Assembly (NCBI RefSeq): GCF_001182045.1
Contig: NZ_CVTY01000006.1
Coordinates: 1-64,000, forward strand
Length of the DNA stretch: 64,000 nt
Source: Dakarella massiliensis
GTDB taxonomy: Bacteria > Pseudomonadota > Gammaproteobacteria > Burkholderiales > Burkholderiaceae_F
Direction of reading: 5' to 3'
Position numbers and translations under genes: made by a program. Position 1 is the stretch's first letter. The number at the start of each line of letters is the position of its first letter. Shown here piece after piece: positions 10,145 through 61,400 of this stretch. The notes beneath the pieces are model-generated. The model was not told where the DNA came from. It saw only the letters and a list, made by a program, of their open reading frames with translations, and did not search any database.

Positions 10145-10973
10145 CTGAGACTCTCTTCTCTCCAAATTCAATCTGTCACGTGAGCCGGCCGCACTCTCCA
10201 AGCAGACAGCTCACTTACTAAATGTTCAGCAAAAGTTCGAAACCGCTAATTTTAGTAAAGAGGAAAGAAATATGCTCGTGTTTTGTATTTTTCTCTATTA
10301 CCGTGAAGGGATAGCCCAAAGTAGTGAAATTTAAATTAGGTATGAGTTTTGTAACTTTTAAATGTTCCGGAAACCAGCTGTTTTAAGGGGTGTACGGGAA
10401 TTTTTGTGAATAGCTGTCAAAAATCCAAAGTTTTCAGACTAAAAATATCGGCTCTCTTCGAATCCCTGATTGCGTAATACGCACTTTTCTGTCGTTATCT
10501 TCGTCGATTTTTCACGATCGCTATCAGGTTCCTGTCGCTTTACAACTTCCCGACCGCTGTTCCGTATACGAAAAACGAAACGCGAGTCACTCTTAATGCC
10601 AAAAATGAAATTGATAAAAATGCATTCACAGGGATTTGACGGGGCGTATCGAAGGATTAATCCCTTAGGTGGGTCCGTTCGACATAAATTTCACCCCTTC
10701 TTCCGGCGTTGAAAAAGATACAGTATTGAAATTGAACAGATTTTCTGGGGTTGTTTCTAAGTGATGGATCCATAGGCAAAAAACATAAATACGGGGTGGT
10801 ATTCCATGGGGGTACACCGGATTTTCCGTATTCTAGGGTATTTTCCTTACATAAACATGGGATAGGACTTTCCCTAGTTACCTACTTTTTTAGGTAGGAA
10901 CACCGGGTTTCGGGCCGAAATCTTTACACTTTTTTGACCGGAAACCCGTTTTTTCTTGAGAACGAACCGCAGT
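10145..10973. other. Long AT-rich intergenic region between adhesin genes
   Basis: About 830 bases with no supported ORF on either strand. It is much richer in A and T than the genes around it and contains several short palindromes, for example ACCTA-N6-TAGGT near 10881-10896. The promoter of the anchorless adhesin should lie in its left part and a strong terminator marks its right end. Confidence 0.4.
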
Positions 10974-51036: not shown

Positions 51037-52321
51037 ATGCTTACCGCTCTCGCGATCTTTATCCTCACTCTCACGCTCGTTATCTGGCAGCCGCGCGGTC
51101 TCGGCATCGGCTGGAGCGCGTCGCTTGGCGCTCTCCTCGCCCTTCTGACCGGAACGGTGCATCTGGCCGATATCCCGGCGGTCTGGCAAATCGTCTGGAA
51201 CGCGACCGGAGCCTTTGTGGCGGTGATTCTCATCAGTCTCCTTCTCGACGCCTCCGGATTCTTTGAGTGGGCTGCGCTTCACGTCGCGCGATGGGGAGGC
51301 GGCCGGGGCACGTGCCTCTTCACGCTCATCATTCTCCTTGGGGCCGCGGTGGCGGCGCTTTTTGCGAACGACGGCGCGGCGCTCATCCTGACCCCGATCG
51401 TGATCGCGATGCTCACGTCGCTCGGATTCGGGAAAAAATCCACAATCGCTTTTGTCATGGCGGCGGGCTTCATCGCGGATACCGCGAGCCTCCCGCTCAT
51501 CGTCTCGAACCTCGTAAACATTGTCTCCGCGGATTTCTTCAGCCTCGGCTTTTCGGAATACGCCTCGGTCATGGTGCCGGTGGACCTCGCGTCGATCGCG
51601 GCGTCGCTCGCCGTGCTCCATTTTTTCTACAGGAAAGACATCCCTGCGGCTTATGCCCCAGAGAAACTCGCGTCACCCGCTTCCGCGATCCGGGACCGCG
51701 GCACCTTTTACACGGGCTGGGCGGTGCTTCTCCTGCTTCTTGCCGGGTTCTTCATTCTTGAGCCGCTCGGGGTCCCGGTGAGCGCGGTGGCGGCCGCGGG
51801 CGCGCTTACTCTTTTCGCCGCGGCGCTCCGGGGCCGCGTGATTGACACCGTCCGGGTGCTGAAGAACGCCCCCTGGCAGATCGTCACCTTTTCACTCGGT
51901 ATGTATCTCGTGATTTATGGGCTCCGGAACGCGGGGCTTACGGAGCTGCTCGCCTCCTCCCTCTCGCGCCTCTCAGACTCCGGGGTGTGGGGCGCGGCGC
52001 TCGGGACTGGGTTTCTTTCCGCTTTTCTCTCCTCTCTGATGAACAACATGCCGACCGTCCTCGTCGGAGCCCTTTCCATTGATGGCGGCACAGCGTCCGG
52101 GATCATCCGGGAAGCGATGATTTACGCGAACGTGATCGGATGCGACCTCGGCCCGAAGATCACCCCGATCGGAAGCCTCGCGACACTCCTCTGGCTTCAC
52201 GTGCTTTCTGAAAAGGGGATCCGGATCCACCTGGGGCTTCTATTTCAAAATGGGGATCGTGATGACGCTCCCCGTGCTCTTCGCGGCGCTCTCAGTTCTC
52301 GCGCTGAGACTCTCGATCTGA
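51037..52321 (+). pseudogene. arsB: ArsB arsenite permease with a one-base frameshift near the end
   Basis: A membrane permease of about 427 residues when corrected, matching ArsB length (429 in E. coli). Motifs: [51 protein letters not shown] and [22 protein letters not shown]. Near the end, the run GGGG at 52233-52236 has one G too many. With three G residues the frame continues [20 protein letters not shown] and ends LRLSI at 52321, as in ArsB. As sequenced, it instead continues to 52356 with a non-homologous tail. Most of the protein is unaffected, so function may be kept or the base may be an error. It is the last gene of the ars cluster. Confidence 0.88.
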
Positions 52322-52512
52322 CTTCTTTCCGGCCGGGTTTTCAGCCCCCGTTATGAAATATGCGAATAGTGAATATGAAATAGCCGGACCGCGGGGTTAT
52401 TTTTTGCGGATCAGATTTCTGACACGCCGTAAAAATCGGATTCTGAACCTCGGAAACACGGAGGTCTCAGCCGATTCAGATCAAAAAAATGAACGCAAAA
52501 ATCGGTTCGCTA
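52322..52512. other. Spacer between arsB and the sRNA promoter
   Basis: About 190 bases with no gene and no strong terminator for arsB recognised. It is AT-rich near the end. Confidence 0.3.
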
Positions 52513-52541
52513 TTGACACTCAGTATGAATAAAACTACTAT
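52513..52541 (+). promoter_or_regulatory. Near-consensus sigma-70 promoter of a candidate small RNA
   Basis: The -35 TTGACA (52513-52518) matches the consensus exactly. A 17-base spacer separates it from the -10 TACTAT (52536-52541). The predicted start is near 52548. No ORF with a ribosome-binding site follows, and a strong terminator lies 230-260 bases on. Confidence 0.75.
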
Positions 52542-52547
52542 TACAGA

Positions 52548-52806
52548 TGTAGTACCAAGGGCGTTCCGCAGAGTGGTGTCTGCACAGGGGCCCGCCCGGA
52601 TGCTGGTGCGAGAGAAGGGGCTGTGTGGTGTTTTGCTCCTTAACCTTTGATGCGGTTGTTCATAGCTTCTTTTCTCCGCCGGCACATTTAGTAACCTGTA
52701 GTTCTTGTATGCCTTGTGAGACTGCTGGCTTGTACTGCTTGGTACCCTGCAGTGATTGGCCCCTTTCAAAGTCCGCCGGATCTTCAGATCCCGCGGACCT
52801 TTTTTT
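52548..52806 (+). ncRNA. Candidate small RNA of about 260 nt
   Basis: The segment is bounded by a near-perfect promoter and a strong rho-independent terminator. It shows internal pairing: GCAGA/TCTGC (52568-52583) near the 5' end and a long-range GGGGCC (52587-52592) with GGCCCC (52758-52763) that could close a large bulged structure. Frames inside it lack a ribosome-binding site and have no recognisable product. I could not match it to RNase P, tmRNA, 4.5S or 6S RNA by eye, though the long closed hairpin recalls 6S-like architecture. It lies between arsB and the pst operon and may be regulatory for either, or independent. Confidence 0.55.
52771..52806 (+). terminator. Rho-independent terminator of the candidate small RNA
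   Basis: Stem GTCCGC-C-GGATC pairs with GATCC-C-GCGGAC around a TTCA loop and is followed by seven T residues (52800-52806). Confidence 0.85.
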
Positions 52807-53007
52807 CCTTGTCGGGAAGACACCGGGCGAGTCGATATTCCAAAAAGTCATATCGCTCCGAAAACTGTCACCCGAAACACAGAAAAAGAAATCCCCCGAC
52901 GGGTTAAACCGGGTCATTAAAACGGATTTTCTTGAATAAAGTCAAAATTTTTACCGCTTTCCGCAGGACCCCTGTCTTTTTTTGTTTTTTCAGCGCATAA
53001 TATCGCT

Positions 53008-53229
53008 ATTCCTAAACGGAATAATGACGAAAAGCCTCCGGCAGCCTCTCCCGCTTCTCCTTGGGGGTGCCTGCGAATCTGGCTTCGGGTCCGTCCGGCT
53101 CAGGGGTTCTCCCGCTCCTCAGCGATTCCGTTTCGGTTGTTCTGCGACGAGTAATCCTCTAAAGGGCTCGCACCTTTAAAGATTCTCTCTTTTATTACAC
53201 CGGACGGTCACTACCCGTCCGGTTTTTTT
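53008..53229 (+). ncRNA. Possible second short transcript
   Basis: A -10-like CATAAT at 52996-53001 (weak -35) precedes a stretch of about 220 bases ending in a strong terminator. A hairpin TAAAGG/CCTTTA lies near 53160-53178. A small frame (ATG 53023) is open for 51 codons but is Arg/Leu/Gly-rich and not protein-like. It may be a small RNA or a short leader. Support is weaker than for the transcript at 52548. Confidence 0.35.
53199..53229 (+). terminator. Rho-independent terminator without an upstream gene
   Basis: Perfect 8-bp stem CCGGACGG/CCGTCCGG with a 7-base loop followed by seven T residues. No protein gene ends before it on this strand. Confidence 0.85.
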
Positions 53230-53365
53230 CTGCAGGGTTCCCGGCGCTGACCGACCCCTTTTGCCCGATCTCTTTTCAGTTCCGCACTACGGATTAACGG
53301 CAATCCGGTCTACAGCAGACGATCAAAACAGGCTTATTTCAGCCGTTTTTACGCAGAAACCGTGT

Positions 53366-53410
53366 TTGTCATCATTCTGTCATGAAAAATTCATGTACAC
53401 GTCATGAATT
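53366..53410 (+). promoter_or_regulatory. Tandem Pho boxes of the pst operon
   Basis: Four repeats GTCAT, GTCAT, TTCAT, GTCAT start at 53368, 53379, 53390 and 53401, exactly 11 bases apart. This is the direct-repeat pattern bound by phosphorylated PhoB, here two adjacent Pho boxes. A possible -10 (AATAAT, 53425-53430) follows. The pst genes should therefore be induced by phosphate starvation. Confidence 0.85.
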
Positions 53411-53451
53411 CGCAACAGGGTTGAAATAATCGCCTCGTAGTATGCAGGGTA

Positions 53452-53484
53452 CCGGGATGGAAGTGAAGAGTTGTCCCATCCCGG
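53452..53484 (+). other. Hairpin in the pstS 5' leader
   Basis: Perfect 9-bp stem CCGGGATGG/CCATCCCGG with a 15-base loop, 34 bases upstream of the pstS ATG. It may stabilise the transcript or modulate translation. Confidence 0.45.
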
Positions 53485-53517
53485 CCTTCCATTTTTCAAT
53501 TGATTGCATACTCGAAA

Positions 53518-54567
53518 ATGATCACTCTCAAGCCGTTCAAAGCTGTCACTCTCGCCGCCCTTATCGCTGCCTCGACGCTCGCCGTCGCGCACGCTTCCAC
53601 GATTACCGGTGCCGGCGCTTCGTTCCCCTACCCCGTCTACGCCAAGTGGGCTTCTGACTACAAGGCTGCTACCGGTAACCAGGTGAACTATCAGTCCATC
53701 GGCTCCGGCGGCGGTCAGCGCCAGATTATCGCGGGTACCGTTGACTTCGGCGCTTCTGACGATCCGATGTCCCCCGCTGAACTGGAAAAGCATAAGCTCG
53801 TTCAGTTCCCGGCTGTTATCGGCGGCGCGGTTCCGGTTGTGCATATCGCCGGTGTCAAGGCTGGCCAGCTCCGCCTGACCGGCCCCGTTCTCGCCGACAT
53901 CTACCTCGGCAAGATCAAGATGTGGAATGACGCCCAGATCACGAAGCTGAACCCGGGCCTCAAGCTCCCGGCCTCTCCGATCGTCGTGATCCACCGCGCT
54001 GACGGTTCCGGCACCACGTTCCTCTGGACCGACTACCTCTCCCAGGTCTCCGCTGACTGGAAGTCCAAGGTCGGTGCCGGCAAGGCTGTGAAGTGGCCGG
54101 TGGGCCAGGGTGGCAAGGGCAACGAAGGTGTTGCCGCTTACGTCGGTCAGCTGAATAACTCGATCGGTTACGTCGAATACGCTTACGCGAAGCAGAACCA
54201 CCTCGCCTGGACCCAGCTCCAGAATAAGGCGGGCAAGTTCCTGCAGCCGTCCGGTGACGCCTTCGCTGCCGCCGCCTCCAACGCCAAGTGGAACAGCGTG
54301 AAGGGCATGGGCGTGTCGCTCGCGAACACCGACGGTGCCAAGTCCTGGCCGATCACCTCCGCTACCTTCGTCCTCCTGCAGCAGACCCAGACGAAGCCTG
54401 ATCAGGGCCGCGCCGTCCTGAACTTCTTCGACTGGTCCTGGAAGCACGGCGGCAAGGCTGCTGAAAAGCTCGACTACGTGCCGCTGCCCGCTGCTGTCAC
54501 GACCCGCATCCGCGCGATCTGGAAGTCGGACCTCAAGGCTGCTGACGGAAAGCCGCTGGTGAAGTAA
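53518..54567 (+). CDS. pstS: Periplasmic phosphate-binding protein PstS
   Basis: A 349-residue solute-binding protein with a Sec signal ([17 protein letters not shown], cleavage after VAHA). Phosphate-site motifs are clear: [14 protein letters not shown] at the mature start, [35 protein letters not shown] and [14 protein letters not shown]. It captures phosphate in the periplasm for PstCAB. ATG 53518 was chosen because it begins the signal peptide, while an upstream TTG at 53500 is not needed. It is the first gene of pstS-pstC-pstA-pstB behind tandem Pho boxes, and an intergenic hairpin after it should raise its level over the other subunits. Confidence 0.95.
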
Positions 54568-58414: not shown

Positions 58415-61400
58415 TCAGAAGAGGATCTTCGCGCCGACAAACGCCCCGGCGTTCCAGTAGCTGTGGGATCCGGCCTGATAAAGCGCCGCGCCCCAGAGGT
58501 TCACGTTCTTCGAGACCTTCCCCTCGATCCCGAACTTCACTTCGCCGAAGTTCCGTGTTCCCTCAATCCTATCCTTCACGCCGTCATAGACCACACCGAA
58601 GTTCTTCGTGTCGTGGTACCAGTTAAGCGTCAGGTACGGCTTGATCGCTCTGCCCGTCTTCGGGTTCGTGAAGAGGTGGTACGCGGTCGCGCCGATACGG
58701 GGCCTGACGTTCCCGGCCCCGGTCCCCTGAACCGTGAAGTTCTCGGCGTCGACATGTTCATCGGCGCGGACTCCCATGCGGATCACCTGAGCCTGGAGCT
58801 GGAGCCGCGTCGCGTTTTGGGTTCCGCTCGCGCTCACCCAATCCTTCAGCCCAAACGTGTAGCCCGCTTCAAGAGACCCGGTCCAGCCTTTCGAGTGATA
58901 CTCCTCTTCGGCTGCGCTGCTCGCGTGGACCTTATCCGTGAAGTGCTGGTAAATCATCCAGAGATCCGCGTACGGTCCGGTCGCTTCCGGATTGTCATTC
59001 ATGTAGATCGCGTAGAAACCGGCGGAATAGCCGGAGAGCTTTCCTTTCGATGTGAGCCCGATGTCGCTTGACCGTGTCTTCGTGCTCTGATGCGCGTAGC
59101 CCGCCATGAGACCGACGTGGAACCGGTGATCACCGGAACCGGGCCACGTGACGAGGTCACCGCCCACCTGCACGACACCGTACGTGCCGCGGTTCGTGAG
59201 CTGGCTATCCGTCATCGTCGTGTAGTTCTTGCCGCCCTGCATCCGGATCCAGACGTTACCGGACTTCTTCTGACTCTTCAAGGCGTCCGAGTACCGCGTC
59301 TCGCCCAGGCGGTCATAAAGCGACGTCGTAAAGAGCGTGTTCGACGCGAGCATATTCGCGGCGTAGCTTCCGAGCTCCGGCTTCACATAGTGAATAGTGG
59401 GATCTGTCGGATCTACTGCTGGAATGACATCCGGCTGCGCGGGATCGGGATCGTCATCGGTTTTCGGAAGAATGATCTTCGACGCGTCCGGATCCCTCTG
59501 ACTCGTGAGGTACCAGTCGCTTCCGATCTTCTTCAGCTCATAGATATAAGCGCCGGCGGTAAGCCGGTTCGATTCCGGTTTCGTGAAGACCGCGTCCGAA
59601 TTTCCGCCCACCTGGACCACCTTGATCCCTTCAATCGTCTGGCTGCCGTAGCCTGACACCTTCGTGAACACGAGGTTCGCGGTGCCGGACGTATTCCCGT
59701 TCACGACGATCTTGTCGTGCGGCGACGTATCACCCTGGAGCACGGTGCTCATGTTCACGGTGCCGCCGTCAGCGGAGTAATCCCCGTCCACCGTAAGCGT
59801 GGTGCCTGCGAAGCCAGTCGACGGAGCGGCCGGGAAGTTGATCGTACCGGAAGACTGCTTGAGACTCGTGACTTCGGAAGTTGCGGCGATATTCCACACC
59901 GCGGACGCGTCCGTGAATTCCAGATCCGTCGTGCCGCCTGAAAGCGTTGAGGTGCCGTTCCAGGTGCCGCCGAGCGACGTGGTCACCGCGGCGCTGTCAG
60001 CGGACGAAAGATTCCCATTCACCGTGGTGCCGGGGTAAAACATTTCCGTCACCTTGGTGCCGGTGCCGGTAGCCGTCACATCACCATTCAGGGTCGCGGT
60101 GTCCCCGAGGTAGACCGCCGCGGTCGCGCCGGCAGACGCGTCAACATTACCCGTGAGGACGGTTTCACCCGAGCCCATCAGATAGAGCACCGTTTTATCG
60201 TCTTTCGCGGTAAAGTCGCCGTCAACCTTCACCGTATCCGTCACCCAGAGCTCACCGAAAGCGCCGCCCGAGAGATTCATGTTGCCGGTAAAGGATCCTG
60301 TGCCGCTGCCATTAAAGTTCCAGGTCGACGGAATGCCGCCGCTTGACGTACCTGAGACGTTTACATCCCCTGACATCGAGGCAGCGCCTGAGAAGGTTCC
60401 GTAAATGTGACCGCCATCCGTCACGGTCGACGTGCCTTTATAAGCCGTGTTCTCATAAAGGGTCAGCGTGTTCAGGCTCCGGGTAAAATCGTCAGCGTCC
60501 GCTTCATGCCCAGGCGCAACCCCTTGAGCGGAGAGATCGCCGGTTATTGTCGAATTTCCTGAAAGCATCATACCGGCTGAGGCACCATTGGTGACCGTCA
60601 GATTCATAAGAGCCTTCGCGGTACCGGCCTCCTGAATGCTCATGCTGCTGTCATCCCCGTCAACCGTCGCTTCTGACGTTCCGCCGTTGAGCGACGTGTA
60701 AGCCGCGTCACTGTATAGCCCAATGTAGGTTGCGCTGGCGCCCGAGGTCTTTATCGTATCGGCCTTCAGGTAAGAACCCGCTCCGGTTTCATAAATTCCG
60801 ACACCGGACTGATTATCCGCGATGACATTCCCGTTCACTCTGACGCCAGTTGCTATCTCAGAGCTATTGATAGAAACCGAGCCGTTATCAGCCCAGATTG
60901 CGTAACCATTCGCCTGATTGAGAACCTCAATCGGGCTGTTTTGCGCCTGGATCGTGACACCGCCTTTACCGAGCGCCCCAATCGTGGGGTTTACGGCTGA
61001 GTTATTCAGTACCTGAACCCCGGAGCCATTCGCGTCAAGAGAGGTCAGGGCAACTGTGCCATTATCAGCGGCTACGGCTGCGCCCGGATTGTTCTGAACC
61101 TTCACGCTGCCGGCCTGAAGGGCAACAAACCCCTCCTGTGTAGCCATTACCGCGTACGGAGTATTTGCTCCCGTGCTTTCAACAACAACACTCCCGCCCG
61201 CACCGGTCTGACCGGAACCAAAAAGATCCACTTCACCGCCGGCCTTGGTATAAATGGCGATGTTTCCGGAAGAAATCGTGGTCTTTGAAGCCCCCCCGAT
61301 ACGAACCGTAACATTGGAACTCTCCGTTTCGATACCGTAGTCTGCTGCGGTTATCGAGGCTTCGCCGCCAGAAAGCGTGAGGAGAATACCGCGGTCAATG

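Follow-up and report, generated by a model that had tools for sequence, protein, structure and literature searches.

The window analysed here is the whole 64,000-nucleotide stretch of DNA presented above. Its segment 48745-57351 carries a gene encoding ArsD and ArsA domains, arsB, two candidate small RNAs and the pst genes. The first of these candidates, which we call RNA1, is located between arsB and pstS, and the frames downstream of pstS read, by eye, as pstC, pstA and pstB. The coordinates of the features are collected in Table 1. Examination of the window sequence together with a pattern scan delimited a unit at 52513-52806 on the plus strand, composed of a promoter, about 230 bases devoid of any credible open reading frame, and a terminator hairpin. 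The first-pass annotation had described an exact TTGACA, a 17-base spacer and a TACTAT, and this promoter sequence is indeed present at the place indicated. It had also described a terminator with a 12-bp stem and seven T residues. The hairpin (52771-52798) and the seven T (52800-52806) are there, but the stem is made of 11 pairs with a C.C mismatch; the pattern scan had missed this terminator. The promoter motif is not rare: an exact -35 box accompanied by at least four of the six -10 bases occurs once in the 64-kb window, against 0.5 +/- 0.6 times in 20 shuffles, and sites with at least 10 of 12 matching bases occur twice, against 2.55 +/- 1.8. A pattern found at chance frequency proves nothing alone. 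Upstream of pstS, four direct repeats look, by eye, like a Pho box.

Table 1. Features of the arsB-RNA1-pstS locus, in window coordinates
Feature	Position	Strand	Basis or remark
arsB, upstream neighbour of RNA1	51037..52356	+	ArsB, E 1.3e-142
Predicted sigma-70-type promoter, TTGACA-17-TACTAT	52513..52541	+	hexamers 52513-52518 and 52536-52541, both identical in M. multiformis
RNA1, candidate small RNA, about 259 nt	52548..52806	+	start inferred from the -10 box; conservation and fold
5' hairpin of RNA1	52548..52584	+	minimum-energy fold; 9 of 10 outer pairs never vary, 1 broken in the relative
Domain closed by AGGGGCC/GGCCCCU, 7 pairs	52586..52764	+	minimum-energy fold; 7 of 7 pairs unchanged
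Long hairpin, 24 pairs, branched tip	52601..52684	+	fold comparison with M. multiformis
Segment of RNA1 with complementarity to the pstS leader	52738..52751	+	unchanged in M. multiformis
Predicted intrinsic terminator of RNA1, 11 pairs and a C.C mismatch, followed by C and a run of seven T	52771..52806	+	sequence
Four 7-base direct repeats, 11-base spacing, Pho-box-like, upstream of pstS	53366..53405	+	read by eye
Putative pairing site for RNA1, pstS leader	53443..53456	+	complementarity
pstS, phosphate-binding protein	53518..54567	+	PBP_like_2, E 1.5e-34; start codon chosen by eye

We then asked whether the unit could encode a peptide. Six open reading frames of at least 25 codons overlap it, and each was compared with the corresponding region of Mesosutterella multiformis. 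All six run into an alignment indel, four contain internal stops in M. multiformis, and the remaining two (52716-52907 and 52756-52920) cross the terminator. The first-pass annotation had seen no plausible frame between the two signals and had named a conserved peptide frame with ribosome-binding site in relatives as one observation that would speak against an RNA; the comparison with M. multiformis revealed no such frame, and this lack of frame conservation argues for an RNA. A short translated peptide gene, or a decaying coding sequence, is thus scarcely credible at this place: the inner 41-codon part of a 53-aa frame, starting at 52525, is indeed uninterrupted in both species, but it begins with an ATG situated inside the promoter, between the two boxes, and therefore upstream of the predicted transcription start, no ribosome-binding site is seen by eye, six of its codon changes between the species are nonsynonymous against two synonymous, and the full 53-aa frame has no match in Pfam and is interrupted by stops in M. 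multiformis.

The segment is syntenic with M. multiformis contig NZ_BGZJ01000002.1, where a 24-base exact match is found; on these grounds the window was assigned to Mesosutterella (Sutterellaceae). Comparison with M. multiformis provides what we consider the strongest evidence that the candidate RNA1 exceeds chance. Across the unit, -35 box and T tract included (52504-52807), the two species differ by 21 substitutions over 304 bases, with no indel. The spacer upstream of the unit shows 68 substitutions over 173 bases and the spacer downstream 29 over 165 (Fisher p 1e-17 and 5e-4, respectively, relative to the unit). Conservation thus shifts at the -35 box and again where the T tract ends, the downstream contrast being the weaker one, and a downstream bin, 52860-52899, equals the unit in conservation (2 substitutions over 40 bases). 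Within RNA1 (52548-52800), 17 substitutions and no indel were counted over 253 bases; identity between the two species is 93% for the RNA and 87% for the arsB gene. The promoter and the intrinsic terminator with its U tail, both predicted, are both kept in M. multiformis, the terminator with one change in the loop. Close to the 3' end of arsB, at about 52230, a one-base indel, either real or a sequencing error, changes the frame relative to M. multiformis, so that the predicted C-termini of the two ArsB proteins are not comparable.

The folding of RNA1 was predicted in both species. The fold energy corresponds to a z of -4.31 for the window sequence and of -4.84 for its M. multiformis counterpart, and none of 200 shuffles was as good in either case. 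The predicted fold common to both species comprises a 5' hairpin, the terminator and, between them, a closed domain holding three hairpins, one of 24 pairs and two that are smaller. A long-range GGGGCC/GGCCCC pairing within a closed, bulged rod had been proposed from the sequence at first reading. The pairing itself stands, since 52587-52592 pairs with 52758-52763 when the sequence of either species is folded to minimum energy, but the simple rod gives way to the three-hairpin domain; an alternative fold nearer to a closed rod, in which the 5' end (52552-52559) pairs with 52738-52745, was rejected as 5.6 kcal/mol worse. Conservation of the pairing in relatives, which had been suggested as a check, was found for the most part. 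Paired positions account for 10 of the 17 transcript differences; 4 of 85 pairs are broken, against 7.3 +/- 1.6 under random placement (P 0.039), and one of the 85 is kept through a two-sided change, M. multiformis being the only relative found. In the 24-pair hairpin, 18 pairs are invariant, four are changed on one side and still paired, one is changed on both sides and still paired, and one is broken. Moreover, the folding energy of the relative is better than that of most of 1000 random mutants (P 0.024). The covariation statistic calculated on the two sequences was reached by 243 of 500 shuffles; two sequences make a proof by covariation impossible.

It could be argued that this region is merely conserved DNA without a functional transcript, its promoter and terminator being spurious, and both the chance frequency of the promoter pattern and the equal conservation of 52860-52899, beyond the terminator, go in this direction. 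However, conservation shifts at the two signals and the fold surpasses all shuffles in both species, which renders such an explanation quite improbable. From the sequence evidence, we propose that RNA1 is very probably an independent small-RNA gene, equipped with both a promoter and a terminator of its own. The comparative data, namely a conserved unit, a maintained fold and unconserved frames, also favour the first-pass view of a small-RNA candidate that belongs to none of the common housekeeping families.

Does RNA1 belong to a described family? A scan of the whole window against Rfam 15 gave no match at the gathering threshold, and permissive scans (E up to 10) in both species returned over RNA1 only unrelated families at chance level. 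The covariance search against Rfam suggested at first reading therefore leaves RNA1 without a fitting family, in agreement with the impression, gained by eye, that it resembles no common housekeeping RNA. The first suggestion for that search was 6S RNA, and on the evidence of covariance models this one is rejected. The 6S model RF00013 had no match over 52400-52900 up to E 10, nor in the genome of the window as a whole (G000) at E 10. At E <= 0.001, it matched 12 of the 21 genomes searched and none of the five Mesosutterella genomes, which make up five of the nine without a match; at E <= 10, it gave only two weak matches in these five (G003 and G004). A second model, R2, was built from eight oriented 6S sequences of the order, i.e. 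the eight loci returned by the RF00013 search. R2 located a separate 6S gene in all five Mesosutterella genomes, at 53-72 bits; that of G000 lies at C5:393022-393210 (68 bits). The Mesosutterella 6S RNA is thus a gene that RF00013 misses at E <= 0.001 and that a model made from relatives recovers in five genomes out of five. Over RNA1, R2 scored 3 bits at 52597-52689 (+) and 3.9 bits at 52766-52802 (-), and its best score within 52300-53600 was 6.9 bits, on the terminator of the second candidate, RNA2. The idea that RNA1 or RNA2 was the missing Mesosutterella 6S RNA was dropped once R2 had found the 6S gene in all five genomes; RNA1 is not 6S RNA, because the 6S gene is located elsewhere in the genome.

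RNA1 and 6S RNA (RF00013) are both intergenic and both have a long-range helix, but 6S RNA forms a rod with a central bubble whereas RNA1 has three hairpins in a closed domain. RNA1 might nonetheless use its long hairpin to bind a protein, in the manner of 6S or CsrB-type RNAs, and the maintenance of the 24 pairs despite seven changed positions in their 5' strand would fit such a role. The exclusion of 6S by RF00013, by the R2 scores and by the separate 6S gene in five of five genomes stands against it, and we regard a protein-binding function as unlikely. RNA1 would represent a new, narrow sRNA family of ordinary kind.

The distribution of RNA1 is indeed narrow. By DNA search (E <= 1), the full-length sequence was found in two of the five Mesosutterella genomes (G000 and G002), while two more contained short matches at chance level. 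The same two genomes out of 67 in the family were obtained by DNA search and by covariance model; a third DNA match in the family (G023, 28 bases, E 0.006) was dismissed as chance after its locus had been read. A wider DNA search at E <= 1 was positive for 37 of 61 genomes; the matches, apart from the full-length ones of G000 and G002, were short words covering 16 to about 43 bases of the query. Nine of these loci were read by eye, none resembled the RNA1 unit, and the rest were discarded as chance on length alone. A covariance search over 399 genomes of the order, a sample into which G002 was evidently not drawn as it is not among the matches, returned G000 itself and G113 (22.8 bits, E 0.004 per genome); the latter was set aside as chance because it lies inside long open frames. 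Plasmid and phage records gave no match at E 1e-5, a 20-mer of RNA1 had none in viral contigs, and a 24-mer was found in the genome contigs of a single species, M. multiformis, in a set from which the window's own record is possibly absent. According to these searches, RNA1 appears to be lineage-specific, with two species found so far.

The presence of RNA1 parallels that of its neighbours. Full-length RNA1 and this pstS co-occur in two of the five Mesosutterella genomes, while the searches of the remaining three yielded neither. These three congeners have no pstS match at E 1e-20 and a single arsB match each, 56-59% identical to the arsB of the window, while G000 and G002 possess this arsB and a second one elsewhere, at 60-61%. 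The pattern of pstS and of the second arsB suggests that RNA1 rides on an extra ars-pst segment, so that one branch of Mesosutterella would carry it along with arsenic-efflux and phosphate-uptake genes; the joint absence of RNA1 and pstS in the three congeners may represent one evolutionary event. In the family, a pstS match at E 1e-40 was obtained in 16 of 67 genomes, 14 of which lack RNA1 (their pstS being 46-59% identical). It follows that pstS does not generally need RNA1, which is no general companion of this gene.

What could be the target of RNA1? A segment of the RNA is complementary to the leader of the adjacent pstS gene: 52741-52751 forms 11 perfect Watson-Crick pairs with 53443-53453, and the pairing extends to 14 pairs when G-U is allowed. 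The leader is itself conserved, with no substitution and one 1-base indel over 53441-53512 relative to M. multiformis. On a larger scale, one substitution was found in 53420-53459 and none in 53460-53539, the preceding 53225-53365 differing by 17%. As both sides of the pairing are invariant, there is no covariation. The leader is predicted to fold into an 8-bp helix between 53439-53446 and 53505-53512, which covers bases 6-13 before the ATG at 53518. The duplex energy of RNA1 with pstS, -29.3, ranks first among the 33 predicted gene starts of the window, which are mechanical ORF calls and in part spurious; the next value is -22.7 and the mean -18.1. This energy was reached by 3 of 1000 shuffles of RNA1 and by 1 of 1000 shuffles of the leader. 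It was also equalled or beaten by 9 of 1265 other 100-base segments of the window, which implies that many equally good chance sites must exist genome-wide. Other complements of 11 or 12 bases occur in the window at 10215, 38035 and 63296, none of which is, by eye, a gene leader on the pairing strand, and at 59231 on the minus strand.

The picture is less favourable when accessibility is considered. With opening costs of 6.6 and 11.8 kcal/mol, the net energy of the RNA1-pstS interaction is -6.3 kcal/mol, and pstS then ranks eighth among the 32 starts left after removal of an antisense ORF that overlaps RNA1. Ten of 149 random segments matched this net energy, with eight helices considered per segment against 12 for the genes; a 150th segment, at -238 kcal/mol, was taken as overlapping RNA1 and dropped. 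Occupation of the site raises the predicted unpaired probability of 53506-53511 from 0.01-0.02 to 0.69-0.97, and this freeing of most of the stretch suggests an opening of the leader. However, opening 53503-53522 is still predicted to cost 4.5 kcal/mol, compared with 6.4 for the unbound leader, and two bases of the pstS AUG (U and G) remain paired in the prediction. In view of the net energy, the rank and the AUG, we retain pstS as a target only tentatively.

We speculate on the following scenario. RNA1 would act by base pairing, with the adjacent pstS mRNA as its likeliest single target; its complementary segment (Table 1) would pair with the putative site in the leader, thereby displacing the helix that precedes the start codon, and pstS translation would be favoured. 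Taken as a whole, the statement that RNA1 is a base-pairing sRNA gene directed primarily at its neighbour is possible and remains tentative. The DsrA RNA is known to open the rpoS leader. The two cases are alike in that the pairing involves the 5' strand of a leader helix covering the ribosome region; they differ in that the RNA1 case is only predicted, has a modest net energy and involves an RNA gene adjoining its proposed target. A further step would be that RNA1, by opening a leader that follows a Pho-box-like sequence, couples the phosphate transporter to a second input at the RNA level, which we consider rather unlikely. A phosphate transporter of the pstS kind can also admit arsenate. 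A survey of 21 arsenic islands, which describes connections between arsenic and phosphate genes, found 10 pst operons next to ars operons (PMC3834237); given this proximity, a position between ars and pst would be a reasonable place for an RNA mediating cross-talk. LapS of Pseudomonas aeruginosa is reported to act on putA by pairing over 16 nt (PMC12131859). Like RNA1, LapS is an sRNA tied to a phosphate-related locus (lapA); it differs in deriving from an mRNA 5' region, in targeting putA and in its sequence.

Alternatively, RNA1 could be a genuine base-pairing sRNA, dependent on Hfq or not, whose targets are distant, the complementarity to pstS being a matter of chance. We hold this to be a serious possibility, if short of probable. 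Once accessibility is included, pstS is outscored by seven of the window's other predicted gene starts, Hfq is encoded in all five Mesosutterella genomes, and the closed domain contains an unpaired C-rich stretch (52593-52600). On the other hand, this stretch differs between the species at 52594, and RNA1 adjoins the very gene with which it forms the best duplex of 33 starts. Returning to pstS as the proposed target, its value is that RNA1 would constitute a bounded candidate family with a target that can be tested; a new, narrow sRNA family is in itself an ordinary finding. To judge by the literature searched, gut Sutterellaceae appear to be uncharted territory as regards small RNAs. Indeed, a full-text search yielded no paper joining Sutterella with small RNA and 6S RNA, and among the matches listed for Mesosutterella no title concerned RNA regulators. 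According to a 2020 paper, transcriptome analysis of M. multiformis was not feasible for lack of RNA (PMC7765368).

Directly downstream of RNA1 lies the second candidate small RNA, RNA2 (52976-53226, +). Its sub-threshold likeness to Hrs13 (RF02631; 18.8 bits, gathering threshold 52) and to ncS16 (RF02866, 'Burkholderia sRNA 16'; 14.8 bits, gathering threshold 48) is confined to 53159-53231, is in large part due to the terminator and does not extend to RNA1. RNA2 possesses a -10-like CATAAT at 52996-53001, read by eye, and a terminator stem at 53199-53223. The fold of 53010-53232 has a z of -2.37, with 2 of 200 shuffles as good, and 13 substitutions separate the two species over the 249 bases compared.
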